A stretch of 64,000 nt of DNA from Phytoamicus setariae (lineage in GTDB: Bacteria; Pseudomonadota; Alphaproteobacteria; Rhizobiales; Rhizobiaceae): contig NZ_JAEQNC010000006.1 of assembly GCF_016722925.1 (NCBI RefSeq), forward strand, positions 62,001-126,000, given 5' to 3'. The notes under the pieces are model-generated. The model did no database searches and was not told the DNA's origin. It saw only the letters and a list, made by a program, of their open reading frames with translations. This document shows, piece after piece, positions 22,791 to 42,373 of the stretch. Each line of letters opens with the position of its first letter. Position 1 is the first letter of the stretch. The position numbers were made by a program, and so were the translations under genes.

Positions 22791-24785
22791 TTAGCCCTGG
22801 ATTTCTGCCGCGTACATCGGCCCACCCTTGTGGGCTGGGAAGCCATATCCATTGATCATCACCAGGTCGATATCGCTGGCGCGAGCGGCGATCTTTTCGT
22901 CCAGCAACTTGCGGCCTCCATCCGCCATGGCTCCGAGCAGGCGCGCGACGATCTCGTCAGCGCCGATTGAGCGCGTGACGATGCCCTTGGCTGCACGTGC
23001 TTCCGCGATCATCGCAGACACTTCAGGCGCAGGCACCCGCTTTCCGGCTTCGTAGTTGTACCAGCCGGAGCCGGATTTCTGACCGAATCGCCCAGCTTCG
23101 CAGAGACGGTCGGCGATATCCACGTATCGGGCTGAGGGATCACGGCTCGCCGCCTGGCGCTTGCGCCGCGCCCATGCAATTTCCAGTCCGGCAAGGTCGA
23201 AGACCGCAAACGGTCCCATTGCCAGGCCGTACGCCTCCATGGCGGCGTCGATCTCGCGGGGCTCGGCGCCGTCCTCGATGAGGAATTCCGCCTCGCGCCG
23301 GTAGGCCGAGAAGATTCGGTTGCCGATGAAGCCTTCGGTGACGCCGGAAATGATCGGCAGCTTGCCGAACTTCCTGGCAACGGCAAATCCGCTCGCCAGC
23401 ACTTCAGGCGCAGTTTTTGCGCAGCGAACCACTTCCACCAGCCGCATGATGTTGGCCGGTGAGAAAAAGTGCAGGCCGACGACGCGCTCCGGATATCGGG
23501 TTGCAGCGGCGATGACGTCCGGATCGAGATAGGAGGTGTTGGTCGCAAGAATCGCGTCGGGCCGGACGATGTCATCAAGCGCGCGGAAAAGATTGGTCTT
23601 TACCGCGAGGTCGTCGAACACCGCTTCGATAACGAGGTCGGCAGCGGCGATTTCACCAAGCGAACCGCGAACGGTCAGACGCGACAAACGGTCGGCAAGT
23701 CCCTGCTCGGTGATGCGGCCGGATTTGAAGTTCTTGTCCAGCATGCCGACGATGCGTTCGAGACCTCTTTGCGCGGCCTCGTCGGTCTGTTCGATACCGA
23801 TGACCCGATAGCCGGCGTCCAATGCGGCCACTGCGATGCCCGAGCCCATCAGGCCCGTGCCAACCACCCCGATGGTCGAGACCGGCCGTGCGGTGACGTT
23901 TTCCAGCCCCTCGATCTTGGCGGCAGCTCGCTCGGCGAAGAACACATGCCGGAGCGCGGCAGCTTCCGCCGAATCCCTGAGAGCGACGAACGTCTTGCGC
24001 TCGTCGGCAAGGCCCGCTGCGAAATCCGTATCCTGTGTGGCGCGAACCAGGCGAACAGCCTCTGCCGGTGCCTTTTGGCCGCGTGATTTTGCCAGAATTT
24101 TTGTTGCGGCTGCCTCGATTGCCTCGCCAGGTGCAGTGATTACCGGCTGTTCCGATGACTTGCGAAACAAGTTCCGGTCGCCGCGGATCGCGATCTCGAT
24201 AGCCTGGGACAGTACGTCGCCTTCAGCCAGCGCGTCGATGATACCGGCAGTCTTGGCAGCTTCTGCCTTGAGGCTGCGGCCTGTGGCGATCAGTTCGACC
24301 GCTTGATCGAGCGGTGTCAAACGGGGCAGGCGCTGTGTTCCGCCTGCGCCTGGCACGATGCCGAGCTTGACCTCTGGGAAAGCGACGATCGCGGTTTTTG
24401 CGCCGAGCCGATAATGGCAGGCGAGAGCGATTTCGAGCCCGCCGCCGAGTGCTGCACCATTGAGTGCGGCAACAACCGGCTTGGTCGAGCCTTCGATTCG
24501 GGCGACGACTTCAGGCAGGCTCGGATCAGCCGGCACCTTGCCGAATTCGGTGATGTCTGCCCCGCCGACGAAGATCTTGCCGGCACCGGTCAGGACGACC
24601 GCGTCGACATCGGAAGCCGCCTCCGCATGGGCAAAGGCAGCATATAGTCCCGCCCGCACCGCGGCAGAAGCCGCATTGACGGGCGGATTGTCGATCGTCA
24701 CGACGAGTACGCCGTTTTCAGTACGGCCGCGCACATTGGCCGAAAATTCGTGGTTCATTTCGCCCTCGGCCTTTGTGCTCGACAT
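22791..24785 (-). CDS. enoyl-CoA hydratase/3-hydroxyacyl-CoA dehydrogenase fusion (FadB/FadJ-like)
   Basis: A 664-aa bifunctional beta-oxidation enzyme. The N-terminal crotonase domain shows NGAALGGGLEIALACHY (about 109-125) and the second catalytic glutamate in FPEVKLGIVPGAGGTQRL. The C-terminal dehydrogenase has the NAD fold GVVGTGLMGSGIAVAALDAGY and the catalytic-histidine motif VVGLHFFSPANIMRLVEVV. It is the last gene of the aromatic CoA operon, 7 bases after the RidA stop; ATG 24785 is chosen, ATG 24758 (MNHEF) is also possible. Likely role: hydration and oxidation of the ring-opened C7 dicarboxyl-CoA chain. Confidence 0.9.
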   Translation of the reverse strand: MSSTKAEGEMNHEFSANVRGRTENGVLVVTIDNPPVNAASAAVRAGLYAAFAHAEAASDVDAVVLTGAGKIFVGGADITEFGKVPADPSLPEVVARIEGSTKPVVAALNGAALGGGLEIALACHYRLGAKTAIVAFPEVKLGIVPGAGGTQRLPRLTPLDQAVELIATGRSLKAEAAKTAGIIDALAEGDVLSQAIEIAIRGDRNLFRKSSEQPVITAPGEAIEAAATKILAKSRGQKAPAEAVRLVRATQDTDFAAGLADERKTFVALRDSAEAAALRHVFFAERAAAKIEGLENVTARPVSTIGVVGTGLMGSGIAVAALDAGYRVIGIEQTDEAAQRGLERIVGMLDKNFKSGRITEQGLADRLSRLTVRGSLGEIAAADLVIEAVFDDLAVKTNLFRALDDIVRPDAILATNTSYLDPDVIAAATRYPERVVGLHFFSPANIMRLVEVVRCAKTAPEVLASGFAVARKFGKLPIISGVTEGFIGNRIFSAYRREAEFLIEDGAEPREIDAAMEAYGLAMGPFAVFDLAGLEIAWARRKRQAASRDPSARYVDIADRLCEAGRFGQKSGSGWYNYEAGKRVPAPEVSAMIAEARAAKGIVTRSIGADEIVARLLGAMADGGRKLLDEKIAARASDIDLVMINGYGFPAHKGGPMYAAEIQG

Positions 24786-24792
24786 TATCAGG

Positions 24793-25191
24793 TCACTCTT
24801 CCGGAATGACGGCGGTGGCCTGGATTTCGATCTTGGCACGGTCCTCGACCAGTGCCACGACCTGAACGGCGGCCATTGCCGGGAAATGCTTGCCGATGAC
24901 GTCGCGGTATGCCTGTCCCAGACCTTTCAGGTTCTCGGTGTATTCCTTCTTGTCGGTGAAATACCATGTCATGGTAGTGATGTGGTGCGGCTCGGCGCCG
25001 GCTACCTTCAGCACGTCGACGATATTCTGCAGCGTCTGACGAACCTGGCCGACGAAATCATCGGTCTCGAACTGGCATTGACCGTTCCAGCCGATCTGGC
25101 CGCCAACGAACACGGTCCGTCCGCTTGCTTCGACGCCATTGGAATAGCCGATGGGACGTGCCCAGCCCTCAGGCAGAAGTGTTTTATGCAT
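24793..25191 (-). CDS. RidA/YjgF-family enamine/imine deaminase
   Basis: A 132-aa RidA-superfamily protein that hydrolyses reactive enamines or imines to ketones and ammonia. The sequence has family elements GYSNGVEASGRTVFVGGQIGW, the middle FVGQVRQTLQNIVDVLKVAG block and the C-terminal AVQVVALVEDRAKIEIQATAV. It overlaps the thioesterase stop by 8 bases. In an operon for an aminated aromatic acid, this enzyme is the natural candidate for removing the amino group after ring reduction. That step is inferred from context. Confidence 0.9.
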   Translation of the reverse strand: MHKTLLPEGWARPIGYSNGVEASGRTVFVGGQIGWNGQCQFETDDFVGQVRQTLQNIVDVLKVAGAEPHHITTMTWYFTDKKEYTENLKGLGQAYRDVIGKHFPAMAAVQVVALVEDRAKIEIQATAVIPEE

Positions 25192-25597
25192 TGTTGGTCT
25201 CCAGATGGTGGCTAAGCGCGGCGCGGATATCGTCCGGCCATGCGCAGGCTTTGTGGGTTTTGAGCGAGGTGGCGACTAGCCTCTGGCGCGCGGACCAGAG
25301 CGTGTTACCATTCGCAGACACGGTGTGCTCCAGGTCGAGCGACGAGCCGCCGATCCTGGTAACGCGGATGTCGAATGTCAGATCGCTGCCGTGGAAGCCC
25401 GGCTTGACGAAGGTCAGGTCGAGCGTCAGCGTCGGTGTGCCGATCTTCCGGTCGTCGATCATTTCCTTCCGCGGGGCACCGAGCGAGGCGAAGAAATCCT
25501 CCACCACGCTGTCCATAAGTTTAAGATAGGACGGGTAGTAGGCGATGCCCGAAGGGTCGCAGTCTCCGAAGTGAAGGGGGCGTATGGCTGAATACAT
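25184..25597 (-). CDS. 4-hydroxybenzoyl-CoA-type (hot-dog) thioesterase
   Basis: A 137-aa acyl-CoA thioesterase of the 4HBT/YbgC class. The active-site motif HFGDCDPSGIAYYPSYLKLMD (about residues 9-29) contains the conserved aspartate and GIAYYPxY pattern. It could release CoA from a dead-end or final intermediate of the pathway. The gene is 4 bases from the acyl-CoA dehydrogenase stop and overlaps RidA, within the same minus-strand operon. Confidence 0.88.
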   Translation of the reverse strand: MYSAIRPLHFGDCDPSGIAYYPSYLKLMDSVVEDFFASLGAPRKEMIDDRKIGTPTLTLDLTFVKPGFHGSDLTFDIRVTRIGGSSLDLEHTVSANGNTLWSARQRLVATSLKTHKACAWPDDIRAALSHHLETNNA

Positions 25598-25601
25598 CGC
25601 C

Positions 25602-26765
25602 TTACTCCGCCTTCAGCAGTTCTCGTGCGATGATCAGCTTCTGCACTTCGGTCGCGCCTTCGTAGATGCGCAGTGCGCGGATCTCGCGATAAAGCTTCTC
25701 GGTGATCTCACCGCATGCTACGCCACGACCCCCGAACATCTGCAAAGCGCGATCGATTACAGTTTGAGCGTTTTCCGTGGCCGTCATCTTGGCCATTGCC
25801 GCTTCCTTGGTGGTCGGCAGCTTCTGCACGTCGCGGCGCCATGCGGCGCGATAGGTCAGAAGCGCCGCCGAATCCATCGCGGTTGCCATGTCGCCGAGTG
25901 CGGCCTGCGTAAGCTGCAGGTCACCAAGCGTGGCGCCGAACATCTTGCGGGCCTTGGCATGCGCCAGCGCCTCGTCCAGCGCGCGGCGACCGAAACCGAT
26001 CGAGGCAGCAGCCACCGAAGCGCGGAAGATGTCGAGCGTGCGCATGGCGATCTTGAAGCCTTCGCCGGGCGCACCCAGCCGGCGCGACGCGGGAATGCGG
26101 CAATTGTCAAATCGGATCGTCGCCAGCGGATGCGGCGCGATCACGTCGATGCGTTCGGCAATCGAGAAGCCAGGATCGTCGGCAAACACCACGAAGGCGG
26201 AGATGCCGCGTGTGCCCGGCGCTTCGCCGGTGCGGGCAAATACAGTGTAGACATCGGCGATGCCGCCGTTGGAAATCCAGGTCTTTTCGCCATCGAGAAC
26301 ATAGGAATCACCGTCGGCGCGCGCCGCACATGCCATGGCCGCAACATCGGAACCCGCTTCTTTCTCGGACAGCGCGAAAGCGGCGAGCCATTCGCCTGAT
26401 GTGACCTTGGGCAGCACGGCCGCCTTCAGTTCCTCGCTGCCGGAAAGTCCGATCGCGCCCGTACCGAGGCCCTGCATGGCAAAGGCGAAATCGGCCAATC
26501 CGTCGTGCCAGGCAAGCGTCTCGCGCGCCAGGCAAACCGAACGGGAATCGATGGCTGACGTGCCGGCGTTGCCGGTCGCGGCAGCCAGCAGACCGGCATC
26601 ACCCAGCAGCTTCACCAGCGAGCGACAGGCCTTGTCGGTGTCGTGGTGATCGACGCTATCCAGCACGCCCGAGGCTGCGAACGCGTCGATGCGGGCGGCA
26701 AAATCCGCATGCGCTTTGTCAAAGAAAGGCCAGTCGAGATGTTCACGGGTTGGTGCTGAACTCAT
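25602..26765 (-). CDS. acyl-CoA dehydrogenase
   Basis: A 387-aa FAD acyl-CoA dehydrogenase. The FAD/substrate signature [16 protein letters not shown] and [15 protein letters not shown] lie mid-protein, [19 protein letters not shown] is the C-terminal family motif, and the catalytic-base region is [19 protein letters not shown]. The start at ATG 26765 has GAGG 8 bases upstream; ATG 26771 is closer to the site. It probably dehydrogenates a cyclohexane-carboxyl-CoA or ring-opened acyl-CoA in the aminobenzoyl-CoA route. Confidence 0.92.
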
Positions 26766-26775
26766 CGTCATGGCC

Positions 26776-27627
26776 TCAGTTCCCTTCGAAAACGGGCTTC
26801 TTCTTGGCGGCGAAGGCCTCGAAGGCACGGCGGAAATCGCCAGTCGCCATGCAGATCGCCTGCGCCTGCGCTTCGGATTCGATCATCTCCTCGATGCCCA
26901 TCGCCCATTCCTGGTTCAGCATCGTCTTGGTGATGCCATGCGCGAACCACGGGCCATCGGCGATCTGGCGAGCCAGCTTGGCCGCCGCGGCTTCGACTTC
27001 ATCGGCGGCATGCAGCGAGTTAAAGAAACCCCAGCGCTCGCCTTCGTCGGCCGACATCGAGCGGCCGGTATAGAGCAGTTCCGAGGCGCGGCCCTGACCG
27101 ATGATGCGCGGAAGGATGCCGCAGGCGCCCATGTCAGCGCCGGCAAGGCCGACACGGGTGAACAGGAACGCCGTCTTGGCTTCGGGCGTGGCAAGGCGCA
27201 TGTCGGACGCCATGGCAAGGATCGCGCCGGCGCCGGCGCAGATGCCGTCGACAGCCGAAATGATCTGCTGCGGGCACTTGCGCATCGCCTTGACGAGATC
27301 GCCGGTCATGCGCGTGAAGGCCAGAAGATCCGGCATCGCCATGCGGGTGAGGGGCTCGATGATTTCGAACACGTCGCCACCCGAGGAGAAGTTGCCACCG
27401 GCACCGGCAAGCACCACGACGCGTACGTCGGAGGCATAGACGAGGTCGCGGAACAGGTCGCGCATCTCGGCATAGCTTTCGAAGGTCAGCGGATTCTTGC
27501 GTTCCGGGCGGTTGAGGCGAAGGGTCGCAACACGACCGTCTTCGCTGACATCCCAAAGAAAATTCTTTGCCTGATAATTTTTGAAGGGCTTGAGATGGCC
27601 TTGCATCGATGCCGGAGCTTCACTCAT
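26776..27627 (-). CDS. enoyl-CoA hydratase family protein of aromatic CoA operon
   Basis: Crotonase-family enzyme of 283 aa. The oxyanion-hole elements are [17 protein letters not shown] and [20 protein letters not shown]; the central region [21 protein letters not shown] replaces the usual hydratase glutamate pattern and suggests a specialised reaction such as ring hydrolysis. It resembles the crotonase found beside aminobenzoyl-CoA monooxygenase/reductase in other bacteria. Stop and the following start are about 10 bases apart, consistent with one operon. Confidence 0.87.
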
Positions 27628-27629
27628 GA

Positions 27630-28415
27630 CTACATTACCTCTCCACCGGCAATCGCGATTGCCTGTCCATTGATTGAGCCTGCCGCTTCAGAGGCAAGCC
27701 ACAGCACAGTGCCGGCCACTTCTTCCGGTGAGATAAGACGGCCCTGCGGGTTGGCCTTGGTGAACTCAGCCAAAGCCTGTTCCTGGGTACGGCCGGTCTT
27801 GGCGACGATCTCAGCGATCGATCGGGCGATCATCGGCGTATCGGTAAAGCCAGGGCAGACCGCGTTGACGGTGACGCCCTTTCTTGCCAATTCGAGCGCC
27901 AGCGCTCGCGTCAGCCCGACCACGCCATGCTTGGCGGCGCAATAGGCAGACACATAGGCGTAACCAGTCAAACCGGCAGTCGAGGCGATGTTGATGATCC
28001 GCGCGCCCTGGCCTTTGGCCTTGAGGTCGGGCAAAACGGCCTGCGTCACATTGAAGACACCGGTCAGGTCGACCGACAGCACATGCGACCACATGTCGAG
28101 CGACGTCTTTTCGAACGGAGCGCTTGGAGCTTCCCCGGCATTGTTGACGAGGATCGAGACCGGGCCGAATGCTTCATGGGCATTTGCAAGTCCGGCCGAG
28201 ATTTTGTCGCAGTTCGTCACATCAAAATCGTCGGCGATGAAGACATGGCTTCGACCGAGTTCGTCAGCCAGCGCTTCGAGCGGTTCCTTGCGGCGGCCGG
28301 CGACAGTGACCTTTGCGCCGGCTTTGACGAGCGCCCGGGCGATTGCCGCACCGATGCCGCTGCCGGCACCGGTGACGAGTGCATGATGTCCGGAAAGGCT
28401 TGCCAATTCAGACAT
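27630..28415 (-). CDS. SDR oxidoreductase of aromatic CoA operon
   Basis: A 261-aa classical [23 protein letters not shown] binds the cofactor, [12 protein letters not shown] is the NNAG motif, the catalytic serine lies in [15 protein letters not shown], and the active pair is in [14 protein letters not shown] 28415 is chosen; a GTG at 28427 that overlaps the previous stop (GTGA) would add four residues. It probably oxidises a ring alcohol to the ketone in the aminobenzoyl-CoA pathway. Confidence 0.9.
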
Positions 28416-28423
28416 GTTCTCGC

Positions 28424-30748
28424 TCACTTTGTTCCTGCGGCAGCCGCCTTTTCGCGCGCCAGGTTGGTCTCGAACTGCGACTTTGCAGAATAGTACTGCT
28501 TCGGCCACTGAATCGTGTTCAGTCCGATCTTGGCCGCTTCATGCAACGCCCAAGCCGGATCCGCAAGATGCGGACGGGCAACGGCGCAAAGATCGGCACG
28601 ACCGGCAGCGATGATCGAGTTCGCATGATCGGCTTCCGAGATCGCGCCGACGGCAATGGTCGGGATGCCGACCTCGTTGCGGATCTTGTCGGAGAAAGGT
28701 GTCTGGAAGAGACGGCCATAGACCGGCTTTTCTTCCTTCCATACCTGGCCTGACGAGCAGTCGATCAGGTCGGCACCGGCGTCCTTGAACATCTGGGCGA
28801 AGATCGCTGCATCTTCCGGCGTGTTGCCGCCTTCGAACCAGTCGTGGCAGGACAGTCGAACCGAGATCGGCTTGTCTGCGGGCCAGACTTCGCGGACAGC
28901 CTTGAAAACTTCGAGCGGATACCGTGCCCGGTTTTCGTGGCTGCCACCGTATTCGTCGGTGCGGCGGTTGGTCAGTGGCGACAGGAAACTCGACAGCAGG
29001 TAGCCGTGGGCGCAGTGCAGTTCGAGCCAGTCGGCGCCGACCTCGGCCGCATATTTTGCGGAGCGAACATGGTCTGCCAGCACGCGGTCCATGTCGGCGC
29101 GGTCCATGGCTTTGGGCACCTGGCTGTGCTTGAGATAGGGCAGGGCAGATGCCGAGATGAGTGGCCAGCCGCCTTCCTCAACCGGTTGGTCGATACCTTC
29201 CCAGGCTACTTTTGTTGAGCCCTTGCGTCCGGCATGACCGATCTGGATACCGATCTTGGCCGGTGTCGTGTTGTGCACGAACTCCACGAGCCGCTTCCAC
29301 TGCGCAGCCTGTTCGTCGTTCCACAGGCCGAGGCAGCCTGGTGTAATGCGGCCGTCGGGGGATGTGCAGGTCATTTCCGCAAAGACGAGGCCTGCGCCGC
29401 CCATGGCGCGCGAGCCGATGTGAACCAGGTGGAAATCGTCAATCAACCCGTCCTTGGCCGAATACATGGCCATAGGCGACATGACGATGCGGTTGGCCAG
29501 TGTCGTGCCCCGCAACGTATAGGGGGTAAACATCGGCGGCAGCGTGCGGCCGTTGGTGGATGTATCGAGGCCGGATTTCTCGGCAAACCAGCGCTCGTAG
29601 CCCTCCAGCCAGTTGGCGTCGCGCAGGCGCAGGTTTTCGTGGCTGATGCGCTGCGAGCGGGTCAGCATCGAATACATGAACTGTTCGGGCTCGAGCGTGT
29701 CGGCATAGCGGCGACCGACGACTTCGAACCATTCCATGGCATTGCGCGCGGCGTTCTGGATGCGGGCCACGTCGACGCGGCGAATTTCCTCGTAAGCGGA
29801 AAGGACAGCAGGAATCTTGTCCTTTTCGTGCCCGAGTTCCTGGAACTGGCGGGTCAACTCGATCGCATCGTCGATGGCGAGCTTGGTGCCGGAGCCGATG
29901 GCGAAGTGGGCTGTATGGGCGGCGTCGCCCATCAGCACGACATGCGAGTTGCCGTTGAAATGGCTCCACTTGCCGCAGATCAGGCGGGAGAAATTCAGCC
30001 AGGCCGAACCGCGCAGGTGGCGCGCATTGGTCATCAGCGAGGAACCTTCGAGCACTTCGGAGAACAGGTCCTGGCAGAAATCGATCGAACCCTGCTGGTC
30101 CATCTCGCCGAGGCCGTGCGCCTGATAGGCTTCTTCGGTCGTTTCGATGATGAATGTCGAGGTTTTGTCGTCGAACTTGTAGATATGCGCCTGGAACCAG
30201 CCGTGATCCGTCTTGCGGAAATCGAAGGTGAAGGCGTCAAACAATTTGTCGGTGCCGAGCCAGATATAGCGGTTCGGGCGGACAACCATGTCCGGCTGGA
30301 AGACTTCCGGATAGTGAAGGCGGATCTTAGAATTCAAGCCGTCAGAGGCGATCACCAGATCGGCATCGGGGAAATCGAGATCGTTGTTGACGTCGGTCTC
30401 GAACTTGAGTTCGACGCCGAGCGCTTCGCAACGCGCTTGAAGGATGTTCAGCAGCTTCTTGCGGCCGATACCGACAAAGCCATGGCCCGACGTGCGCTGG
30501 CGGGTGCCCTTGAACAGAACCTCAATGTCGTCCCAATGATTGAAGGCGTCCTGGATTTCTGCCGCGCTTTCGGCATCCCAGACTTTCATCGACTCCATCG
30601 TTGCGTCAGAGAACACCACGCCCCAGCCGAACGTGTCGTAGGGCTTGTTGCGTTCCACAACCGTGATCGAATGCTGCGGATGCAGCTTCTTCATCAGGAG
30701 TCCGAAATAGAGCCCGGCGGGCCCGCCACCGACACATACGATGCGCAT
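28424..30748 (-). CDS. bifunctional FAD monooxygenase/old yellow enzyme (2-aminobenzoyl-CoA monooxygenase/reductase type; salicylyl-CoA 5-hydroxylase family)
   Basis: A 774-aa fusion. Residues 1 to ~390 are an aromatic-ring FAD hydroxylase (CVGGGPAGLYFGLLMKK at 5-21; GDAAHTAHFAIGSGTKLAID is the second FAD motif). Residues ~400-774 are an old-yellow-enzyme FMN reductase (MFTPYTLRGTTLANRIVMSP, HCAHGYLLSSFLSPLTNRRT). Exactly this fusion is the 2-aminobenzoyl-CoA monooxygenase/reductase described in Azoarcus evansii, which hydroxylates and then reduces the ring; salicylyl-CoA 5-hydroxylases share the layout. RidA and the beta-oxidation genes favour the amino compound. It is first in the operon, with GGAGGTCAAG before ATG 30748. 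Confidence 0.92.
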   Translation of the reverse strand: MRIVCVGGGPAGLYFGLLMKKLHPQHSITVVERNKPYDTFGWGVVFSDATMESMKVWDAESAAEIQDAFNHWDDIEVLFKGTRQRTSGHGFVGIGRKKLLNILQARCEALGVELKFETDVNNDLDFPDADLVIASDGLNSKIRLHYPEVFQPDMVVRPNRYIWLGTDKLFDAFTFDFRKTDHGWFQAHIYKFDDKTSTFIIETTEEAYQAHGLGEMDQQGSIDFCQDLFSEVLEGSSLMTNARHLRGSAWLNFSRLICGKWSHFNGNSHVVLMGDAAHTAHFAIGSGTKLAIDDAIELTRQFQELGHEKDKIPAVLSAYEEIRRVDVARIQNAARNAMEWFEVVGRRYADTLEPEQFMYSMLTRSQRISHENLRLRDANWLEGYERWFAEKSGLDTSTNGRTLPPMFTPYTLRGTTLANRIVMSPMAMYSAKDGLIDDFHLVHIGSRAMGGAGLVFAEMTCTSPDGRITPGCLGLWNDEQAAQWKRLVEFVHNTTPAKIGIQIGHAGRKGSTKVAWEGIDQPVEEGGWPLISASALPYLKHSQVPKAMDRADMDRVLADHVRSAKYAAEVGADWLELHCAHGYLLSSFLSPLTNRRTDEYGGSHENRARYPLEVFKAVREVWPADKPISVRLSCHDWFEGGNTPEDAAIFAQMFKDAGADLIDCSSGQVWKEEKPVYGRLFQTPFSDKIRNEVGIPTIAVGAISEADHANSIIAAGRADLCAVARPHLADPAWALHEAAKIGLNTIQWPKQYYSAKSQFETNLAREKAAAAGTK

Positions 30749-30797
30749 CTTGACCTCCATGAAAGTGATGCTGGAGAAGAGCCGTGCTCTTCATTTG

Positions 30798-32694: not shown

Positions 32695-32709
32695 TTCTAC
32701 CTCCTCCAC

Positions 32710-33404: not shown

Positions 33405-34418
<1,014 letters not shown>

Positions 34419-34669
34419 TTACGTTCTTGCGATACTGAACGTCCGTCCACTTGGGTGCAAGCAATCGATGAGTCTTCCGGACGGCTCCACGGCCATCTGA
34501 CCGATGGAAATGAATGACCGGTAGCCAGCGTCATGGTCGCAAACTGCCCCGGCAATGGCCGGTGTCACTATTGGCAGACAGGATTATTGATGTTGGTGCC
34601 GGAGGTTTGGGCTTGAGATGGCCCCGACCGGGCGTGTAATGCGGCTGTGCAAAGTGAAGGGACTGAAAT

Positions 34670-34888
34670 ATGGGCGACGATGTTACGGAATTGACGGCCC
34701 TTCTGAAGGCGATCGCTGAAAGCCCCAAGCGCGACAATACCGTGTATCACAAGGCAATGTCCGAAGCCCGCCAAGCCTTTCAAGACGCGGAGGCCGCCTT
34801 GGGCGGGCCGGTTCGCCTCAAGACGAAAACCAAGATGAAGCGCAACGGCGAATTCATCGTGAAGTGGACGTTCAAGCGCGAAAAATGA
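34670..34888 (+). CDS. small basic hypothetical protein (72 aa)
   Basis: Not recognised. A soluble protein without membrane segments; the N-terminal half is predicted helical (TELTALLKAIAESPKRDNTV) and the C-terminus is lysine/arginine-rich (KTKTKMKRNGEFIVKWTFKR), which would fit nucleic-acid binding. AAGGGA lies upstream of the ATG. It is flanked by about 280 bases and 240 bases of non-coding sequence with no recognised element. Confidence 0.5.
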   Translation: MGDDVTELTALLKAIAESPKRDNTVYHKAMSEARQAFQDAEAALGGPVRLKTKTKMKRNGEFIVKWTFKREK

Positions 34889-35130
34889 TCGTGTTATGCG
34901 ATGTCGCAGCTGCACCGGCTACCGCAACAGAATAAATGATCCTGCGACAATGGCACCGTTGCTTGGCCTGAACTGGCCGAGGTGCCTGCGATATTTTCTA
35001 CGGCTGTTTGCATGGGCGTAATTTTCATGGCTTTGGTTGTGCAAATGGACCTATAAAATGATCCCGGCACACCAAGCGACATTCCGTGGTGGAGCACTGC
35101 ACGTCTTTTATACGATTTCCGGTGGTTTCA

Positions 35131-37032
35131 ATGGCATCCGATAAGAAGACCGTCTCGGTGGAATCCGGCAAGACCCTCAAGACGATCTATAATCTCTGGC
35201 CGTATATGTGGCCTTCGGGGCGGATGGATTTGAAGATGCGGGTTGTCTGGGCCACGCTCTTCCTCCTGCTTTCGAAGATCGTGCTGCTGTCCGTACCCTA
35301 CTTTTTCAAGTGGTCGACCGATGCGTTGGCCGGCAATCTGGACGCGGCCGGCGACCTGCTTCCGTTCGTGCTGGGCGTGCTGGCTCTGGTGGCGGCCTAC
35401 AATCTGGCGCGCGTCATCCAGGCCGGGTTCAACCAATTGCGTGATGCGCTGTTTGCCAGCGTCGGCCAATATGCGGTGCGCCAACTTGCCTTGAAGACAT
35501 TCCTGCATCTGCATCGATTGTCGTTGCGCTTTCATCTGGAACGCCGCACGGGCGGTCTGTCGCGCGCCATCGATCGCGGCACCAAGGGGATCGAGACGAT
35601 CGTTCGCTTCGTCATCCTCAACAGCATGCCAACGGTCATCGAATTTTCCATGACGGCGGCGATACTCGCCTGGAGCTATGGCTGGAGCTACCTGGCTGTG
35701 ACCGCGCTGATGATCGCCAGCTACATCTGGTTCACGATCCGGGCGAGCGACTGGCGGATCGATGTTCGACGCAGCATGAATGCTTCCGACGCCGAGGCCA
35801 ACTCCAAGGCGATCGACTCGCTCTTGAATTTCGAGACCGTCAAGTATTTCGGCAACGAGGAGATGGAGGCCAGGCGCTTCGATCAATCCATGGAGGGCTA
35901 TGAGAAGGCCGCCACCAAGGTCTCGACCTCGCAAGGCTTGCTGAACTTCGGCCAGGTGGTGATCTTCGCTGCCGGCATGATGACGATGATGACGATGTCC
36001 GCGCTTGCGATCCGTGCCGGGACACAGACGGTCGGCGATTTCGTCTTCATCAATGTGCTGCTCATGCAGCTTTCCCTGCCGCTTGGCGTCATCGGTTTTG
36101 TCTATAGTGAAGTGCGCCAGGCTCTCGCCAATATCGAACAGATGTTTGACCTGCTTGATATGGATGCGGAGATCGAGGACGCGCCGGGCGCGAAGGAGTT
36201 GATGGTCGCATCGGGGGCCATTTCATTCAAGGATGTGCATTTTGCTTACGACAAGGCGCGACCAATTCTCAAAGGCGTTTCCTTCGACGTGCCCGCAGGC
36301 CATACGATTGCGGTTGTTGGTCCGTCGGGCGCTGGCAAGTCCACAATTTCGCGGCTGCTCTACAGGTTCTACGATGTGCAGGCAGGCTCCGTCAGCATCG
36401 ACGGGCAGGATGTGCGTACGGTCACGCAAAAGAGTCTCAGAGCGGCAATCGGCATGGTGCCGCAGGACACCGTGCTGTTCAACGAGACGATTGCCTACAA
36501 CATCCGCTACGGTCGACCGTCTGCAACGCAGGAGGACGTCGAACGTGCCGCCGAGATCGCTCAGGTCGACCATTTCATCCACAGTCTTCCGGAAGGCTAC
36601 AAGTCCATGGTGGGCGAGCGCGGGCTGAAGCTCTCGGGGGGAGAAAAGCAGCGCGTTGCGATTGCCCGCACGATCTTGAAGTCGCCGCCGATCTTGATCC
36701 TTGACGAAGCGACATCGGCTCTCGATACCCACACCGAGCAGGAAATCCAGGCGGCTCTTGATGAGGTGTCGAAGAACAGAACCACCCTGATTATCGCTCA
36801 CCGCCTTTCCACGGTGATCAATGCCGACGAGATCATCGTGCTTAAGGATGGCCGTATCGCCGAGCGAGGCAGGCACGCCGAACTTCTCGATCAGAACGGT
36901 CTCTATGCCCGCATGTGGAACCGCCAGCGCGAGGCGACGGAAGTCGAGGAGCATTTGACGAAAGTGCGGGCGGAAGACGATCTGGGTGCACTGGCAGACC
37001 GAACGAAAAATACCATCGAAAATCGGCCGTAA
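35131..37032 (+). CDS. Atm1/HMT1-type ABC exporter (half-transporter)
   Basis: A 633-aa half-transporter with an N-terminal six-helix ABC-transporter type 1 domain and a C-terminal ATPase. The family-specific FETVKYFGNEEMEARRFD motif identifies the Atm1/ABCB7 branch, which exports glutathione-linked compounds or metal conjugates. The ATPase has Walker A (GPSGAGKST), signature LSGGEKQRVAIAR, Walker B ILILDEATSALD and the H-loop (AHRLSTV). It functions as a homodimer in the inner membrane. ATG 35131 (MASDKK) is preferred over the upstream frame. No operon partner apart from the following GNAT gene. Confidence 0.93.
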   Translation: MASDKKTVSVESGKTLKTIYNLWPYMWPSGRMDLKMRVVWATLFLLLSKIVLLSVPYFFKWSTDALAGNLDAAGDLLPFVLGVLALVAAYNLARVIQAGFNQLRDALFASVGQYAVRQLALKTFLHLHRLSLRFHLERRTGGLSRAIDRGTKGIETIVRFVILNSMPTVIEFSMTAAILAWSYGWSYLAVTALMIASYIWFTIRASDWRIDVRRSMNASDAEANSKAIDSLLNFETVKYFGNEEMEARRFDQSMEGYEKAATKVSTSQGLLNFGQVVIFAAGMMTMMTMSALAIRAGTQTVGDFVFINVLLMQLSLPLGVIGFVYSEVRQALANIEQMFDLLDMDAEIEDAPGAKELMVASGAISFKDVHFAYDKARPILKGVSFDVPAGHTIAVVGPSGAGKSTISRLLYRFYDVQAGSVSIDGQDVRTVTQKSLRAAIGMVPQDTVLFNETIAYNIRYGRPSATQEDVERAAEIAQVDHFIHSLPEGYKSMVGERGLKLSGGEKQRVAIARTILKSPPILILDEATSALDTHTEQEIQAALDEVSKNRTTLIIAHRLSTVINADEIIVLKDGRIAERGRHAELLDQNGLYARMWNRQREATEVEEHLTKVRAEDDLGALADRTKNTIENRP

Positions 37033-37140
37033 TTGCGTTTGAAAACGCTTGGGATGCCATCGCCGGTATGACTTCTTGGGAACTGGCGGCTTCCTCGTAC
37101 ACCAGGCTGGCATGAAGGTGATCACGCTTTTGGGGCGAGC

Positions 37141-37605
37141 ATGCGCGCAATGAATTCGACCTTCGAACTCCGATTGGCATCTCAGCCCGACTATGAAGCT
37201 ATTGCCTCCGTATGGCATAGCAGCGCGAGCCTTCCCGGAGTCGGTCCGCCCGTGATGCCGACGCAAAATGAGCTCAGACGGCGCATCGATCTGGAGTTTG
37301 CTGCAGGTTGGGAAGTGACGGTCGCGGTTCGCAGGAGTGATGTCATCGGGTTTGTCGCACTCAAGCCGCGGGAAGGTGTTCTCGACCAATTGTTTGTTCG
37401 ACCCGCCTTGGTCGGAGGCGGTATCGGCAAAGCGTTGCTTGCCCATGCCATGGCTGCCATGCCCAAGGGTTTCACGCTGTTCACGGCGTCGTCCAATGCG
37501 AAGGCTCGCATATTTTACGAAAAGGCGGGCCTCATTCCAATGCGTGACGATGCGCATCCGCGGACCGGTCATCCGGTGACTTACTACGGCTGGAAGGTCG
37601 TCTGA
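37141..37605 (+). CDS. GNAT-family N-acetyltransferase
   Basis: A 154-aa single GNAT domain. The acetyl-CoA-binding motif A is LDQLFVRPALVGGGIGKALL and motif B region GFTLFTASSNAKARIFYEKAG ends in the typical aromatic FYEKAGL. GGGGCGAGC precedes ATG 37141; ATG 37150 is also possible. Substrate unknown. It follows the Atm1-type exporter by 108 bases on the same strand. Confidence 0.88.
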   Translation: MRAMNSTFELRLASQPDYEAIASVWHSSASLPGVGPPVMPTQNELRRRIDLEFAAGWEVTVAVRRSDVIGFVALKPREGVLDQLFVRPALVGGGIGKALLAHAMAAMPKGFTLFTASSNAKARIFYEKAGLIPMRDDAHPRTGHPVTYYGWKVV

Positions 37606-37715
37606 GTGCTGATTTTCGAAGTGGCGCAATTTAGCATTCGGCGCCGACAGGCCGACGCCGTCATGCGCGGGACAATGGCGCGCGCGAAAAGACGCGCTAC
37701 CACGTCTACGTCAAC

Positions 37716-39386
37716 TCATTTTCCGACGGAGGTCGGTTGCTGCAGCTTGTCCAGGACATTGCCGAGAGAGAAGCTGCCTGGCTTTTGACGCGGCGGGAAT
37801 TCCACGTAGGTCTGCAGATGCTGTGCGACGAAGGCCTGCGCCGGTACCAATGCGAAGGCGTGTTCGACCCGCCAGCGATCATAATCTCCCGCATCGACTT
37901 GGGCGCGTTCGAATGGGTCGGCTCTTAGATCGATCAGTTTCGGGAAACGAAGTTCGACCAGTGGGTCCTGCCAAACGGCGAGGCCTTCCGCGCGCTGTTC
38001 GAGGAATACCAGCTTCCAGCGGTCATATCGCAAGCAGGCAAGATCGCCGCCGTCCGTCCAGTAGAAATACTCCTTGCGGGCTCCTTCACCGGTGCCGGCG
38101 AGCAACTCTCGTTGATCATAGCCGTCCAGGTGCACCTTGAAAGTTTTGCCCGCCGCGTCATATCCGGAAAGGAGTTGCTTGGTTATATCCGGATTGCCCG
38201 CCGCCGCCACAAGCGTTGGTACAAAGTCCTCATGCGATGTGATGGCATTGATCTGCGTCCCCGGCTTGACGAGGCCCGGCCAGCGTACCAGGCAGGGAAC
38301 GCGGTATCCGCCTTCCCAGTTGGTGTTCTTCTCGCCCTTGAAAGGGGTGGTGCCACCGTCTGGCCATGAGAAGACCTCTGCACCATTGTCTGTGGTCCAG
38401 ATGACGATTGTATCTTCGGCGATGCCGAGATCATCCAGTTTCTTGAGGAGTTGGCCGACCATGCCATCAAACTCGACCATGCCGTCCGCTTCGATCCCCA
38501 GTCCGGTCTTGCCTTTCGACGCGGCTTTCAGGAATGTGTAGATGTGCATGCGTGTCGAGTTGAACCAGCAGAAGAACGGCTTGTTTGCCGCATGCTGGCG
38601 GTCGATGAAGTCCAGAGTCGCACCGAGGAATTCCTCATCCACCGTTTCCATCCGTTTGCGGGTCAGCGGACCTGTGTCCTCAATGGTTTGCATTCCGACT
38701 CGGCCGAAACGGGGATCCTCGGAAGGATCGTCCTTGTCCGTCGCCTTGCATTTGAGGACGCCGCGCGGACCAAATTTCGCGCGGAACTCCGGATTCTTCG
38801 GGTAGTCGGGGTTCTCCGGCTCATCCTCCGCATTCAGATGGTAGAGGTTGCCGAAGAACTCGTCGAATCCATGGACGGTTGGCAGAAACTCATTTCGGTC
38901 GCCCAGGTGGTTTTTGCCGAATTGGCCGCACATGTAGCCTTGCGGCTTGAGCAGTTCGGCAAGGGTCGGATCCTTTGCGGACAATCCTTCCTTCGCGCCG
39001 GGCAAGCCCACCTTGAGAAGCCCCGTCCGGAAACAGGACTGCCCGGTGATGAATGCGGCGCGTCCCGCGGTGCACGACTGCTGCGCATAGTGATCGGTGA
39101 AGATCGCGCCTTCCTTGGCAATGCGATCGATATTTGGAGTTCGATAGCCCATCATGCCCTGGTTGTAGGCACTCGTATTCCAGAATCCGATGTCGTCCCC
39201 GAAGATGACGAGGATGTTCGGCTTCTTGCCTGACGGCGCAGCAGCCTGTGCGTAAGCTGCTGCAGTTTGCGCCATGTTAATTGCGGCCGCCCCGACTGCG
39301 AATGCAGTCGTCGCCTTGAGCAGATTTCTTCGGGTTACCGGTGGTGACGCGGTTCTATCCTGCGTCGATATGCCGATATCGCTCAT
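37716..39386 (-). CDS. Tat-exported arylsulfatase (type I, formylglycine)
   Basis: A 556-aa type I sulfatase. The N-terminus has a twin-arginine signal (TRRNLLK at 18-24 followed by an alanine-rich stretch), placing it in the periplasm. The sulfatase active-site motif CTAGR (C105-R109) supplies the cysteine converted to formylglycine, and ILVIFGDDIG (58-67) gives metal-binding aspartates. GGGAGG precedes ATG 39386. No sulfatase-modifying enzyme is adjacent. It lies just downstream of the indole-type oxygenase operon but behind that operon's terminator, so it has its own promoter. Confidence 0.92.
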   Translation of the reverse strand: MSDIGISTQDRTASPPVTRRNLLKATTAFAVGAAAINMAQTAAAYAQAAAPSGKKPNILVIFGDDIGFWNTSAYNQGMMGYRTPNIDRIAKEGAIFTDHYAQQSCTAGRAAFITGQSCFRTGLLKVGLPGAKEGLSAKDPTLAELLKPQGYMCGQFGKNHLGDRNEFLPTVHGFDEFFGNLYHLNAEDEPENPDYPKNPEFRAKFGPRGVLKCKATDKDDPSEDPRFGRVGMQTIEDTGPLTRKRMETVDEEFLGATLDFIDRQHAANKPFFCWFNSTRMHIYTFLKAASKGKTGLGIEADGMVEFDGMVGQLLKKLDDLGIAEDTIVIWTTDNGAEVFSWPDGGTTPFKGEKNTNWEGGYRVPCLVRWPGLVKPGTQINAITSHEDFVPTLVAAAGNPDITKQLLSGYDAAGKTFKVHLDGYDQRELLAGTGEGARKEYFYWTDGGDLACLRYDRWKLVFLEQRAEGLAVWQDPLVELRFPKLIDLRADPFERAQVDAGDYDRWRVEHAFALVPAQAFVAQHLQTYVEFPPRQKPGSFSLGNVLDKLQQPTSVGK

Positions 39387-39590
39387 TGCATGCCTCCCTT
39401 GCGTTTGATGAACTGCAATGCGGATGCTGAATGCGCATAGACTTGCGAGCTGAGCGGCAAAATTACCCAGCCGACGGAAAATCAAAATCCAAGTCGGGGA
39501 TGGAGGCAAGTACGTTACGGTAACACAGGGTCAAATAAAGCCGGAAAGCGAGGCCTGACCGGACTGTCGGAGCGAGGATCGGTTGCCTCG

Positions 39591-39624
39591 GAAAATAAAA
39601 ACCCGCCGGATCGCTCCGGCGGGT
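39591..39624 (-). terminator. rho-independent terminator of the indole-type oxygenase operon
   Basis: On the minus strand ACCCGCCGGA-gcga-TCCGGCGGGT (10-bp stem, 4-base loop) is followed directly by TTTTATTTT. It lies 26 bases after the oxygenase stop. Confidence 0.92.
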
Positions 39625-39649
39625 CGCTATGTGTGATTGTATCGGTTGA

Positions 39650-40885
39650 TCAGGCCGCGAGCTTCTGCAGGTAGGCGTCTGCTTCTTCCGGAATGGCAAA
39701 CCACGGGAAGAAATCGACCGGGTTGTTGAAGCCGTTGGCGATACGCTTGGCGAGTGCCGGAAAGGCCTGGGCCGAACCCATGATGTTGAGCACGTGTGGC
39801 GGTGGCGGCTGCAGCAGGGCATTGGTCCAGCCGACTACGAACTGGGCGTAGTTCCAGTACGTGTCGAAGGTCGCCTGCATGAAGGCGGCGTCGTAGGGCC
39901 GGTCGCCATGTGCAAGGATCGCATCCATATAGGCCTTGGCGGCCTTGGAAGCGTTGTTGGACCCCTGACCGGTGATCGGGTCGTTCAGGCATACGGCATC
40001 GGCCATGCCGAGCACGATTGCGCCCGATGGCAGCCTGCCGATCGGCTTGCGGACGGTGGGCGCGAAAGCGCCTGCCAGAATGCCGTTGTCGTCAGTCAAC
40101 TCGATGTTGCGGCAGCGCTCGGCTTCCCACGGCAGGAAGGTATCGAGGATCCACTTGGACTTGGCCAGATGTTCCTCGGGCGTCTTCACATCCTTCCAGC
40201 AGTCCATAGGGCCGCCCGGAATGCCTTCGAGAACCATGATCTCGCAGGGACCGGTTGTCGTCAGTGCCGGAAACACGAAATACTCGCCAACCGTCGGGAT
40301 CAGATTGAAGGCGACAGCGGAATGTTCCGGGCGTGGGGTCATGCCGGTCACATAGGTGAGCGCAAGCGCGCGCTGCGGCTTGTCGAACGGCGATTTTTCG
40401 GCATCGCGCTCGAACAGCTTGGCAATATCGCCCTTGCCCGCGGCAACGATCACGAGGTCCGACGACTTGGCATACTTTTCCAAATCCTCGATGCCAGCAT
40501 CAAGAATGGTCATCTGGCCGCCGCGTTTTTCGAACTCGGTCATCCAGACCGGAATCTTGACGCGCTGGTCGACGCTCTGGGCATATTTGTCGAGCTTGCC
40601 GTTCCAGTCGATTGCCTTGGTGCCGGAACCGTCCGGAGCCGGAACGACGAAATTGATCGAGTCGACCGTCGGGCATTCCTTCTCCCAGAAGTTCAGCCCG
40701 AGGTCGCGCTCGTTCTGCAGCGCCTGATCGAACATGCACTGGCTGGACAACACCTTGCCGGTGCGGACCTGTTCTGCCGTGCGGTTCTGGACGATTTCGA
40801 CTTCGTAGCCGTTTGACAGCAGGCCGCAGCCGAGCTGCAAACCTGACTGGCCACCGCCGACGATGGTAATCTTGCGTTTTGTCAT
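39650..40885 (-). CDS. styrene/indole monooxygenase-family flavoprotein (StyA/IifC-like)
   Basis: A 411-aa group E flavoprotein monooxygenase, oxygenase half of a two-component system. The FAD Rossmann motif is ITIVGGGQSGLQLG (6-19). The block KLFERDAEKSPFDKPQRALA corresponds closely to the KVFEKQSENSPFEKPQRAL segment of StyA, and LNDPITGQGSNNASKAA is the second FAD motif. GGGGA lies 9 bases before ATG 40885. With an SDR, a flavin reductase and an AraC gene alongside, the layout matches the indole-oxidising iif/ind loci, in which the StyA-like enzyme dihydroxylates or epoxidises indole. Indole as substrate is inferred. Confidence 0.9.
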   Translation of the reverse strand: MTKRKITIVGGGQSGLQLGCGLLSNGYEVEIVQNRTAEQVRTGKVLSSQCMFDQALQNERDLGLNFWEKECPTVDSINFVVPAPDGSGTKAIDWNGKLDKYAQSVDQRVKIPVWMTEFEKRGGQMTILDAGIEDLEKYAKSSDLVIVAAGKGDIAKLFERDAEKSPFDKPQRALALTYVTGMTPRPEHSAVAFNLIPTVGEYFVFPALTTTGPCEIMVLEGIPGGPMDCWKDVKTPEEHLAKSKWILDTFLPWEAERCRNIELTDDNGILAGAFAPTVRKPIGRLPSGAIVLGMADAVCLNDPITGQGSNNASKAAKAYMDAILAHGDRPYDAAFMQATFDTYWNYAQFVVGWTNALLQPPPPHVLNIMGSAQAFPALAKRIANGFNNPVDFFPWFAIPEEADAYLQKLAA

Positions 40886-40934
40886 GGTTTTATTCCCCAT
40901 TTGTTTTGACGTTCGATGGCAAAAACTGAATTCT

Positions 40935-41720
40935 CTATTCCATCAGCTTCGGGATGGCCGGGACGTTCTGTTCCGGGCCCATGGCCGTGTAGCCGCCATC
41001 GACGCAGATATCCGTGCCGGTGACGAAACTTGCATTGTCGGACAGCAGGAAGGCGATGGCTTCGGCGACTTCCTCCGGATTGCCGGTGCGGCCGAGCATA
41101 TGGAAGGGGGCGGCGACCTTGTCAGTCTTTTCGCGATTGCCGTTGGTCAGCTGCACCATGATGTTGCTCCAAGTCCAGCCCGGCGAAACGGCGTTGACGC
41201 GGATGCCGTCCGGCGCCAGGTCCATAGCCTGGTTGCGGGTTAGCTGTAGGATGGCAGCCTTGGAAACCGGATAGACCCAGCGGCCGGTCTGCGCGACGCG
41301 TGCCGAAATCGAGCCGAAATTGACGATGGCGCCCTTGTTGGCCGCAAGATGCGGACGCGCTGCCTGCATCAGCATCACGGAGCTGACGATGTTGACGTCG
41401 AGCGCCTTCAGCCAATCCGAGCGGGTGGTTTCAGCGCCGTTGTCGAGATAGGTGCAGGCAACATTGACGAGAAAGTCGAGCCGGCCGGTCGTCTCCACCG
41501 TCTTGGCGACAAGCGCTGCGATGTCGTCGTCATTGGTGACGTCGGTCCTGATGAAGCTGGCATTCGCGCCGAGACGGGCGGCGACGTCGGTACCGTCTTT
41601 TTCATTGATGTCGGCGATCACCACCTTGGTGCCGTAGCCGATCAGTGTCTTGGCCACGCCCTCGCCAATCAGTGTCGCACCGCCGGAGACAATTGCAGTC
41701 TTTCCGCTTAATCCACGCAT
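40935..41720 (-). CDS. SDR dehydrogenase of the indole-type oxygenase operon
   Basis: A 261-aa classical SDR. Cofactor segment VSGGATLIGEGVAKTL (11-26); catalytic serines in NFGSISARVA; Tyr150 and Lys154 in YPVSK; VTGTDICVDGGYTAM at the C-terminus. The usual NNAG reads VNVACTY, a mild departure. GGGGAA precedes ATG 41720. In the known indole locus an SDR (IifA) oxidises the indole dihydrodiol to 3-hydroxyindolin-2-one, and this gene sits between oxygenase and reductase on the same strand. Confidence 0.9.
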   Translation of the reverse strand: MRGLSGKTAIVSGGATLIGEGVAKTLIGYGTKVVIADINEKDGTDVAARLGANASFIRTDVTNDDDIAALVAKTVETTGRLDFLVNVACTYLDNGAETTRSDWLKALDVNIVSSVMLMQAARPHLAANKGAIVNFGSISARVAQTGRWVYPVSKAAILQLTRNQAMDLAPDGIRVNAVSPGWTWSNIMVQLTNGNREKTDKVAAPFHMLGRTGNPEEVAEAIAFLLSDNASFVTGTDICVDGGYTAMGPEQNVPAIPKLME

Positions 41721-41785
41721 GGAGTTCCCCATCCTTTTTGTTAGATTTGAACCGTAAGGCAATAATTTGTATTGCTAATATATAA

Positions 41786-42298
41786 TCAGGCGCTCTGCAG
41801 CAGCGGCATTTCCGGATGCGTCGTGGTAAAGGCGCCGCCCACATAGACGAGTGGCTCGGCCGCGCTGTTGTCGCTCACCGTCTTTTGCACCCTGCCAATC
41901 AGAATAACATGGGTTGCGAAATCTACAGCCTGTTCCAGTTCGCAATCGAAACTGGCAATCGCGCCCTCGAGTACCGGTGCCCCGGTCTGGGCATCCGACC
42001 AGCCGCCCACCTGAAACCGGTCGGTCGCCGATAGCTCTGTTCGTCCGGCAAACGTCTCGGCGACCGATTGTTGGTCGCGGGCGAGAACGTTGACGCAGAA
42101 ATTTTTGCTCTCAGGAGCGAACTGGCCGACCCAGGTTTCGCGATTGATGCAGGCGATAACGGAGGGAGGGTCGACAGTAAGCGAACATACAGCGGTGGCT
42201 GTGACGCCGCGCGGCTCGCCATTGACGCCGCGCGTGGTGACGATAGTCACCGCACCGGCAACCTGGCGCATCGCCGACCTAAACAGATTCTTGTCCAT
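41786..42298 (-). CDS. flavin reductase partner (StyB/IifD-like)
   Basis: A 170-aa flavin reductase domain protein giving reduced FAD to the StyA-like oxygenase. Motifs: RQVAGAVTIVTTRGVNGEPRG, GVTATAVCSLTVDPPSVIACIN, FCVNVLARDQQSVAETFAG, and the C-terminal HVILIGRVQK. It is 35-40% alike by eye to the flavin reductase at 30953. AGGAGGAAGAG precedes ATG 42298. First gene of the operon; the operator-like site at 42358 lies 60 bases upstream. Confidence 0.88.
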   Translation of the reverse strand: MDKNLFRSAMRQVAGAVTIVTTRGVNGEPRGVTATAVCSLTVDPPSVIACINRETWVGQFAPESKNFCVNVLARDQQSVAETFAGRTELSATDRFQVGGWSDAQTGAPVLEGAIASFDCELEQAVDFATHVILIGRVQKTVSDNSAAEPLVYVGGAFTTTHPEMPLLQSA

Positions 42299-42357
42299 GG
42301 CGCTCTTCCTCCTGACCGCGTGGGACTTCATTCGCTCCAGATCCGACTTCCATTCAG

Positions 42358-42373
42358 TTTAGATCTAAAGTAT
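42358..42373 (-). promoter_or_regulatory. TTTAGATCTAAAGTA operator-like site before the indole-type operon
   Basis: A perfect 12-base palindrome TTTAGATCTAAA followed by GTAT, 60 bases upstream of the flavin reductase ATG and in the gap shared with the divergent AraC gene. It matches the two sites before the aminobenzoyl-CoA operon (consensus TTTARRTYTAAAGTA), and all three have the same orientation relative to their operon. Confidence 0.6.

Follow-up and report, generated by a model that had tools for sequence, protein, structure and literature searches.

We analyzed a stretch of 64,000 nucleotides from Phytoamicus setariae (GCF_016722925.1, NZ_JAEQNC010000006.1, positions 62,001-126,000), hereafter the window, which carries an island of genes running from 22.8 to about 59.5 kb (window positions are used throughout). 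As presented in Table 1, the island holds the operon of a 2-aminobenzoyl-coenzyme A (CoA) monooxygenase/reductase (ABM/R), a predicted indole monooxygenase cassette with its flavin reductase, short-chain dehydrogenase/reductase (SDR) and divergent AraC-type regulator, an oligopeptide-type ATP-binding cassette (ABC) transporter, a gene pair of the indolepyruvate oxidoreductase type (IorAB), and a putative isatin hydrolase gene in the company of two flavin adenine dinucleotide (FAD) oxidoreductases and two MarR regulators. The window was collinear with the island of a congener (G003) from 22.8 to 59.3 kb, except at 33.2-39.6 kb, where about 6.4 kb has no counterpart in G003 and represents an insert. 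An earlier sequence-only reading of this DNA had placed the island at 22791-42373; the gene groups it described are real, but the island extends to about 59.5 kb and is interrupted by this insert. On balance, we consider that the island, minus the insert, would serve the aerobic catabolism of indole via isatin and isatinate to 2-aminobenzoyl-CoA.

The oxygenase of the cassette scored 647 bits against 7z4x, which we take to be the indole monooxygenase of Variovorax (the match table itself gives a general name only), versus 129 bits against StyA (3ihm). It remained under the StyA equivalog cut-off (215 of 550 bits) and shared 61% identity with its counterpart at a Burkholderia locus arranged like iif. 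These comparisons point to an indole rather than a styrene monooxygenase. The iif/ind set of monooxygenase, reductase, SDR and AraC regulator is complete at 39650-43482, which bears out the indole-oxidising layout proposed in the sequence-only reading; the AraC regulator scored 146 bits against the AndR model NF041686, under its cut-off of 350. Indole oxidation in the iif pathway is carried out by IifC and IifD, with IifB as the SDR and IifA as a cofactor-independent oxygenase (PMC6221969); IifA is a 416-residue protein of the dienelactone-hydrolase type (PMC4577076). An IifA orthologue was not found in any of 16 genomes searched, that of P. setariae included: coverage never exceeded about 230 of the 415 residues of an IifA-type protein, and the best match in the own genome reached 33% identity over residues 14-233. 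The absence of the cofactor-independent oxygenase had been rightly noticed before, under the name IifB, which belongs to the SDR that is present. These 16 genomes were not random, being members of the genus or carriers of the monooxygenase or the isatin hydrolase.

Comparison of two members of one genus, G001 and G002, indicated how the cassette sits in the island. Their flanks were 90-91% identical, and the monooxygenase cassette appeared as a 3.8-kb insert in G002; no monooxygenase match was found anywhere in the G001 genome, which is 86% complete. The core without the cassette consists of the ABM/R operon, the ABC transporter, IorAB, a MarR regulator, FAD oxidoreductase 1, the isatin hydrolase, FAD oxidoreductase 2 and a second MarR regulator. 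The first MarR was visible in the congener mapping via its antisense frame. On the + strand of the window, an open reading frame of 202 codons (53848-54456) overlaps this MarR gene in antisense, has no family match and is probably no gene. In another order, Alloyangia pacifica carries a compact version of the island with the monooxygenase on two plasmids.

The cyclase-family gene at 56.2 kb, already read as being of the isatin-hydrolase type, was confirmed as such. Its best PDB match was isatin hydrolase B (261 residues aligned; Table 1), versus about 4e-90 for isatin hydrolase A and 1e-4 or weaker for kynurenine formamidases. The metal motif HxGTHxDxPxH, taken from PMC6117287, was invariant in all 14 aligned relatives, and among the matches listed the closest named relatives (84-92% identity) were mostly from Rhizobium and Neorhizobium. 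The assignment as a predicted isatin hydrolase is well supported by these similarities.

To describe the surroundings of this gene, we scanned GTDB with 14 isatin hydrolases as seeds and analyzed the best 80 loci of at least 589 confirmed relatives. Since these loci cluster by kinship, they are not 80 independent cases. IorA and/or IorB lay within 10 kb of the isatin hydrolase in 72 of the 80, with a median gap to IorA of 2.2 kb (71 loci). Of the eight loci with no IorAB nearby, six are cut short on a flank by a contig end, and the flanks of two (L142 and L181) are full. IorA lay downstream in most of the 71 loci, on the strand of the isatin hydrolase in 51 and on the other strand in 19, and was upstream in one; the linkage therefore outlived rearrangement. 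Among eight partners scored, IorA was the sole one in 10/80 loci. FAD oxidoreductase 1 was present in the flank in 65/80, FAD oxidoreductase 2 in 61/80 and the family 5 binding protein in 51/80, and no monooxygenase was found within 10 kb in 77/80. The family 5 ABC transporter accompanies the isatin hydrolase module even where no monooxygenase is nearby. The comparison set, used instead of a matched control gene, was a class sample of 385 genomes including the own genome, with thresholds of E up to 1e-40 for isatin hydrolase and up to 1e-150 for IorA. IorA was present in 58 of these genomes and isatin hydrolase in 13, all of which also carry IorA (hypergeometric P 6e-12, in a sample where kin are not independent), and ABM/R was found in 12 of the 13.

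The IorAB proteins show a thiamine pyrophosphate (TPP) motif, Fe-S cysteines and a POR gamma domain, and are predicted to form a two-subunit TPP- and CoA-dependent 2-oxoacid oxidoreductase of the Fe-S type. IorA scored 267.2 bits against the indolepyruvate oxidoreductase alpha equivalog TIGR03336, under its cut-off of 650.9. Seven C-terminal cysteines were conserved in 56/56 distinct IorA sequences. A PDB sequence search with IorA, singly and as a profile, gave no match. The AlphaFold model had a mean predicted local distance difference test score of 63.6, too weak for a reading of the pocket, and a Foldseek search with this weak model returned TPP enzymes in general, 2-oxoglutarate:ferredoxin oxidoreductase (6n2n) standing 49th among the 50 matches listed. 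Many of the same genomes also carry separate long-frame homologues (about 1,100-1,400 codons) at 23-28% identity. The accessible parts of PMC10374108 and PMC11630574 do not state a function for IorAB.

We placed 66 IorA sequences in a tree, built by a quick method without bootstrap and with long branches flagged in the unlinked group: 47 were labelled as linked to isatin hydrolase (five of them by hand, one of these across contigs), 15 as unlinked and 4 as undecided at a contig edge. All 47 linked sequences fell in one group of 59 rows, split from 7 unlinked rows with a Shimodaira-Hasegawa-like approximate likelihood ratio support of 100. The isatin hydrolase label changed 6 times on the tree, compared to a shuffled mean of 13.6, and none of 500 shuffles was as low. 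At three unlinked loci, ten neighbours were assigned with Pfam: they included TonB receptors, TRAP transporters, an amine oxidase, a mandelate-racemase-like protein and a CoA-transferase, three were without family, and no common substrate was seen. At four loci (L053, L054, L056 and L125), a thioesterase gene follows IorAB, and genes for cupin, FAH, carbon-nitrogen hydrolase and Asp/Glu racemase proteins lie close by; these perhaps form a second outlet via 5-hydroxyanthranilate and maleamate.

Table 1. Genes of the island and its insert in the 64,000-nucleotide window; functions are those predicted from the matches given.
Feature	Position	Strand	Match or remark
3-Hydroxyacyl-CoA dehydrogenase/enoyl-CoA hydratase fusion	22791-24839	-	Pfam 3HCDH and ECH_1; ABM/R operon
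RidA family protein	24793-25191	-	Pfam Ribonuc_L-PSP
Thioesterase	25184-25597	-	4HBT_2
Acyl-CoA dehydrogenase	25602-26828	-	ABM/R operon
Enoyl-CoA hydratase	26776-27627	-	NF006107, 486 bits (cut-off 330)
SDR of ABM/R operon	27630-28508	-	adh_short
ABM/R	28424-30760	-	NF006101, 1354.5 bits (cut-off 1078)
Flavin reductase	30953-31465	-	Flavin_Reduct; paired with the luciferase-like gene, pair kept in congener islands
Luciferase-like (SfnG/RutA type) flavin monooxygenase	31570-32709	-	149 bits to dimethylsulfone monooxygenase 8t0u
Insert genes	33405-39509		Aldo/keto reductase, ABC exporter, GNAT, sulfatase
Indole monooxygenase (IifC/IndA type)	39650-40900	-	Smoa_sbd
SDR, IifB type	40935-41762	-	NF006121, 408 bits (cut-off 294); same place in iif-type loci
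Flavin reductase of monooxygenase (IifD type)	41786-42331	-	Flavin_Reduct
Divergent AraC-type regulator	42493-43482	+	AraC_binding_2 and HTH_18
Oligopeptide-type ABC transporter	44126-49476	-	Two ATPases, two permeases, family 5 binding protein at 47941-49476
IorA-like subunit	49836-52031	+	TPP_enzyme_C; TPP site, C-terminal Fe-S cysteines
IorB-like subunit	52028-53590	+	POR gamma domain and DUF6537; NF006179, 708 bits (cut-off 348)
MarR regulator beside IorAB	53995-54501	-	Pfam MarR
FAD oxidoreductase 1	54531-56132	-	Phytoene-desaturase/amine-oxidase superfamily
Isatin hydrolase (cyclase family)	56193-57035	-	E 3.8e-125 to 4j0n
FAD oxidoreductase 2	57284-58852	+	Same superfamily as FAD oxidoreductase 1
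Second MarR regulator	58933-59466	+	Pfam MarR; same place in congeners

In the operon at the left of the island, the predicted ABM/R is a fusion of an FAD monooxygenase with an OYE-type reductase and matches a family model which NCBI names bifunctional salicylyl-CoA 5-hydroxylase/oxidoreductase. The operon's 3-hydroxyacyl-CoA dehydrogenase/enoyl-CoA hydratase fusion gene lies at the same place in the congeners G001, G003 and G006 and also in G034. A ligase-first operon of Pseudochrobactrum (L058) has the same order of ABM/R, SDR, enoyl-CoA hydratase, acyl-CoA dehydrogenase, thioesterase, RidA and 3-hydroxyacyl-CoA dehydrogenase genes; unlike it, the window operon ends without a ligase and without a thiolase. 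The sequence-only reading had called the operon full; the operon and its ABM/R are genuine, but it lacks an anthranilate-CoA ligase. A CoA-transferase at 20658-22046 was considered as an activator of anthranilate and dropped, since no match to it was found in the mapped congener stretches at the thresholds used. Also to the left of the island, a protein of 773 residues (17926-20247) contains ten stretches of RTX calcium-binding repeats. The luciferase-like monooxygenase was present at 60% identity or more in 8/80 best loci (L175, L183, L184, L185, L192, L198, L199 and L201), mostly with its own flavin reductase, and is kept in congener islands.

Joining these genes, we propose a route whose passage through isatin in general we consider likely. 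The monooxygenase and its flavin reductase would oxygenate indole, and the SDR may, by analogy, convert indole-2,3-dihydrodiol into 3-hydroxyindolin-2-one (dioxindole). Gene context suggests that an FAD oxidoreductase, most likely FAD oxidoreductase 1, would oxidise dioxindole to isatin, which the putative isatin hydrolase would open to isatinate. Chemically, isatinate is 2-aminophenylglyoxylate, an arylglyoxylate. IorAB would decarboxylate it oxidatively onto CoA to give 2-aminobenzoyl-CoA and CO2, a step suggested by gene context, for which we consider the chances evenly poised, and ABM/R would then hydroxylate and reduce 2-aminobenzoyl-CoA for ring cleavage. The monooxygenase, isatin hydrolase and ABM/R steps are the ones for which sequence similarity supports the predicted activities. 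The product of a CoA-acylating IorAB would be exactly the substrate of ABM/R, and on this reading free anthranilate need not be an intermediate. A variant route via isatin and isatinate into a CoA-dependent branch had been suggested by the sequence-only reading; it is still the best reading, with the isatin hydrolase supported, although IorAB, the pair that probably joins the two halves, had not been mentioned. We found no proposal of a conversion of isatinate to 2-aminobenzoyl-CoA in the literature searched, a coverage from which subscription journals were mostly absent. The nearest likeness by reaction type is phenylglyoxylate:NAD oxidoreductase (PadEFGHI), which converts an arylglyoxylate and CoA into an aroyl-CoA and CO2, in its case by oxidative decarboxylation to benzoyl-CoA; it consists of five gene products in anaerobes, in contrast to the two large subunits of IorAB (PMC5109826).

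A second line of evidence comes from the iad loci of auxin degradation, of which iorAB (iadAB) have been described as exclusive markers. The reported iad route runs from indole-3-acetic acid (IAA), entered by a Rieske oxygenase, via dioxindole, isatin and isatinic acid to anthranilate (PMC9613470); its first steps were revised in a later preprint (PMC12633357). In B. japonicum, iorAB were induced 30.7- and 7.6-fold by IAA (PMC3788728). Two genomes (G375 and G242) have a Rieske oxygenase, iadF/G-like genes, isatin hydrolase and IorAB in one row. Azospirillum has an IadD orthologue (633 bits to 7yls, presumably the Variovorax IadD) in one row with IorAB and ABM/R; the isatin hydrolase is on another plasmid together with the monooxygenase, with a FAD oxidoreductase 1 gene between the two. 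An AMP-binding protein in the IadD row scored best with PRK06155 (acyl-CoA ligase), under its cut-off, and the plasmid of that row encodes, at another place, a homologue with 55% identity to the anthranilate ligase. The MarR regulator beside IorAB in the window shares 56% identity with the MarR adjoining IorAB in the Azospirillum iad-type locus. No Rieske gene, such as those for the IadDE oxygenase at the entry of the iad route, was found among the window proteins scanned, a scan outside which 12858-16697 lies. Since the indole and iad routes share dioxindole, isatin and isatinate, and both keep isatin hydrolase and IorAB, isatinate is the simplest substrate for IorAB. In Variovorax, strong accumulation of a compound C8H7NO3 was confined to strains that overexpress iadC-K2, a set of nine genes lacking iadAB; this is the formula of isatinate and not of N-formylanthranilate, and C8H7NO3 and C7H7NO were placed between the IadI product and anthranilate with no enzyme named in the accessible text (PMC12633357). 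We tentatively propose, a shade less firmly than for the single step above, that IorAB here and iadAB of the auxin loci are isatinate:acceptor oxidoreductases (CoA 2-aminobenzoylating), acting with no free anthranilate and no ATP-spending ligase.

The presence of a ligase bears directly on this proposal. Using the ligase of the Pseudochrobactrum ABM/R operon as query, we found no anthranilate-CoA ligase in or beside the ABM/R operon of the window, and the whole-genome search at E up to 1e-60 gave no close ligase on the contig that holds it (C34). At 1e-60 or better, a ligase matched in 9 of the 16 genomes. The other seven (G001, G002, G004, G006, G007, G022 and G242) all carry ABM/R, IorA and isatin hydrolase, and five of them are at least 90% complete; ligase-free islands therefore exist. 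In the class sample, 7/71 genomes with ABM/R had no ligase at 1e-100, and IorA was present in four of these seven. On the Caballeronia and Shinella plasmids that bear IorAB and isatin hydrolase, no ligase match was found in a search confined to these plasmids.

Several observations weigh against the proposal. The own genome has two close ligase homologues (74-76% identity, contigs C23 and C36). In the class sample, isatin hydrolase was found in 2/7 ligase-free versus 10/64 ligase-bearing ABM/R genomes, with no clear difference, and ABM/R occurs in G360, a genome 99% complete, in the absence of ligase, IorA and isatin hydrolase. A ligase gene lies inside the G003 island, in 2/80 best isatin hydrolase loci and about 7 kb beyond IorAB on an Alloyangia plasmid. 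Absence of the ligase as a rule of such islands was rejected, because a ligase is encoded in both the G003 island and the Alloyangia plasmid and the class sample shows no clear tie; many strains probably have the ligase route as well. Full restoration of anthranilate was seen in Variovorax with iadC-K2 and no iadAB (PMC12633357), so IorAB is not needed for making anthranilate, and overexpression alone may have caused the accumulation of C8H7NO3. Isatin hydrolase (46-50% identity) was off the contig of IorA in 6 of the 13 class genomes that carry it, and in a seventh (G334) the two genes are on different short contigs. Finally, 15 of 62 scorable IorA rows lacked linkage to isatin hydrolase; the family must therefore have other substrates too.

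The ligase homologues of the own genome, the Variovorax result and the untied class sample would also suit a different course, in which isatinate yields free anthranilate, through another enzyme or spontaneously, a ligase encoded elsewhere activates it for ABM/R, and IorAB acts on another substrate. The 2-aminobenzoyl-CoA cluster was moreover reported to be vital for anthranilate degradation in Cupriavidus (PMC6221969). We consider this course unlikely: it sits poorly with the seven genomes which keep isatin hydrolase, IorA and ABM/R with no close ligase, and it does not account for why isatin hydrolase and IorAB are linked in the best loci. More improbable still, IorAB could convert indolepyruvate, derived from tryptophan, into indoleacetyl-CoA, the island then combining separate pathways for indolic compounds under common regulators and transport. 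The annotation agrees in all plasmid records that name IorAB this way, and the beta subunit passes the indolepyruvate oxidoreductase beta family model; however, the alpha subunit falls far under its equivalog cut-off, the separate long-frame homologues occur in many of the same genomes, the iad route as reported in the accessible text, where iorAB are markers, has no indolepyruvate intermediate, and the linkage to isatin hydrolase is tight. A third possibility, highly improbable, is that a module made up of the ABC transporter, both FAD oxidoreductases, the isatin hydrolase and IorAB degrades some other imported isatin-like heterocycle, with the indole cassette as a later optional feeder. In its favour, G001 and G006 have this module and no monooxygenase, most of the best loci have none within 10 kb, and the family 5 binding protein points to uptake of a larger compound; against it, the cassette lies inside or beside the module in several lineages and the nearest solved enzyme is an isatin hydrolase.

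Returning to the route through isatinate and IorAB, we compared the island with described systems. The iif/ind clusters of Acinetobacter and Cupriavidus (and the homologous ipo/dho genes of Pseudomonas) share the monooxygenase, flavin reductase, SDR and AraC regulator with the window, which lacks an IifA orthologue and has isatin hydrolase, FAD oxidoreductases and IorAB instead. The indole cluster of Providencia rettgeri GS-2 also has a monooxygenase, reductase, SDR, AraC regulator and a cyclase-family (PF04199) gene, GS-A; isatin was detected in this strain and a route via N-formylanthranilate to catechol proposed, and the accessible part of that account mentions neither IorAB nor ABM/R, both of which are present in the window (PMC9871250). 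The iad locus of Variovorax and Bradyrhizobium resembles the window in IorAB (IadAB) with its adjoining MarR and in the dioxindole, isatin and isatinic acid route (PMC9613470), and differs from it in the entry of IAA by Rieske oxygenase, thiolase and ligase steps and in free anthranilate as the reported product. The sequence-only reading had claimed a new combination, a claim that does not hold, as PMC6221969, in its accessible part, presents an indole cluster feeding the 2-aminobenzoyl-CoA branch as demonstrated in Cupriavidus, citing Qu 2017. What differs from that reported combination is the middle of the pathway, and the role of isatin is among the key questions listed in the same paper.

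If the proposed reaction of IorAB is true, a gene pair conserved in indole and auxin pathways would gain a function as a CoA-forming isatinate oxidoreductase, and the "indolepyruvate oxidoreductase" proteins encoded beside isatin hydrolase would be misnamed. The breakdown of indole and of auxin would then be joined directly to 2-aminobenzoyl-CoA, sparing the ATP of the ligase.

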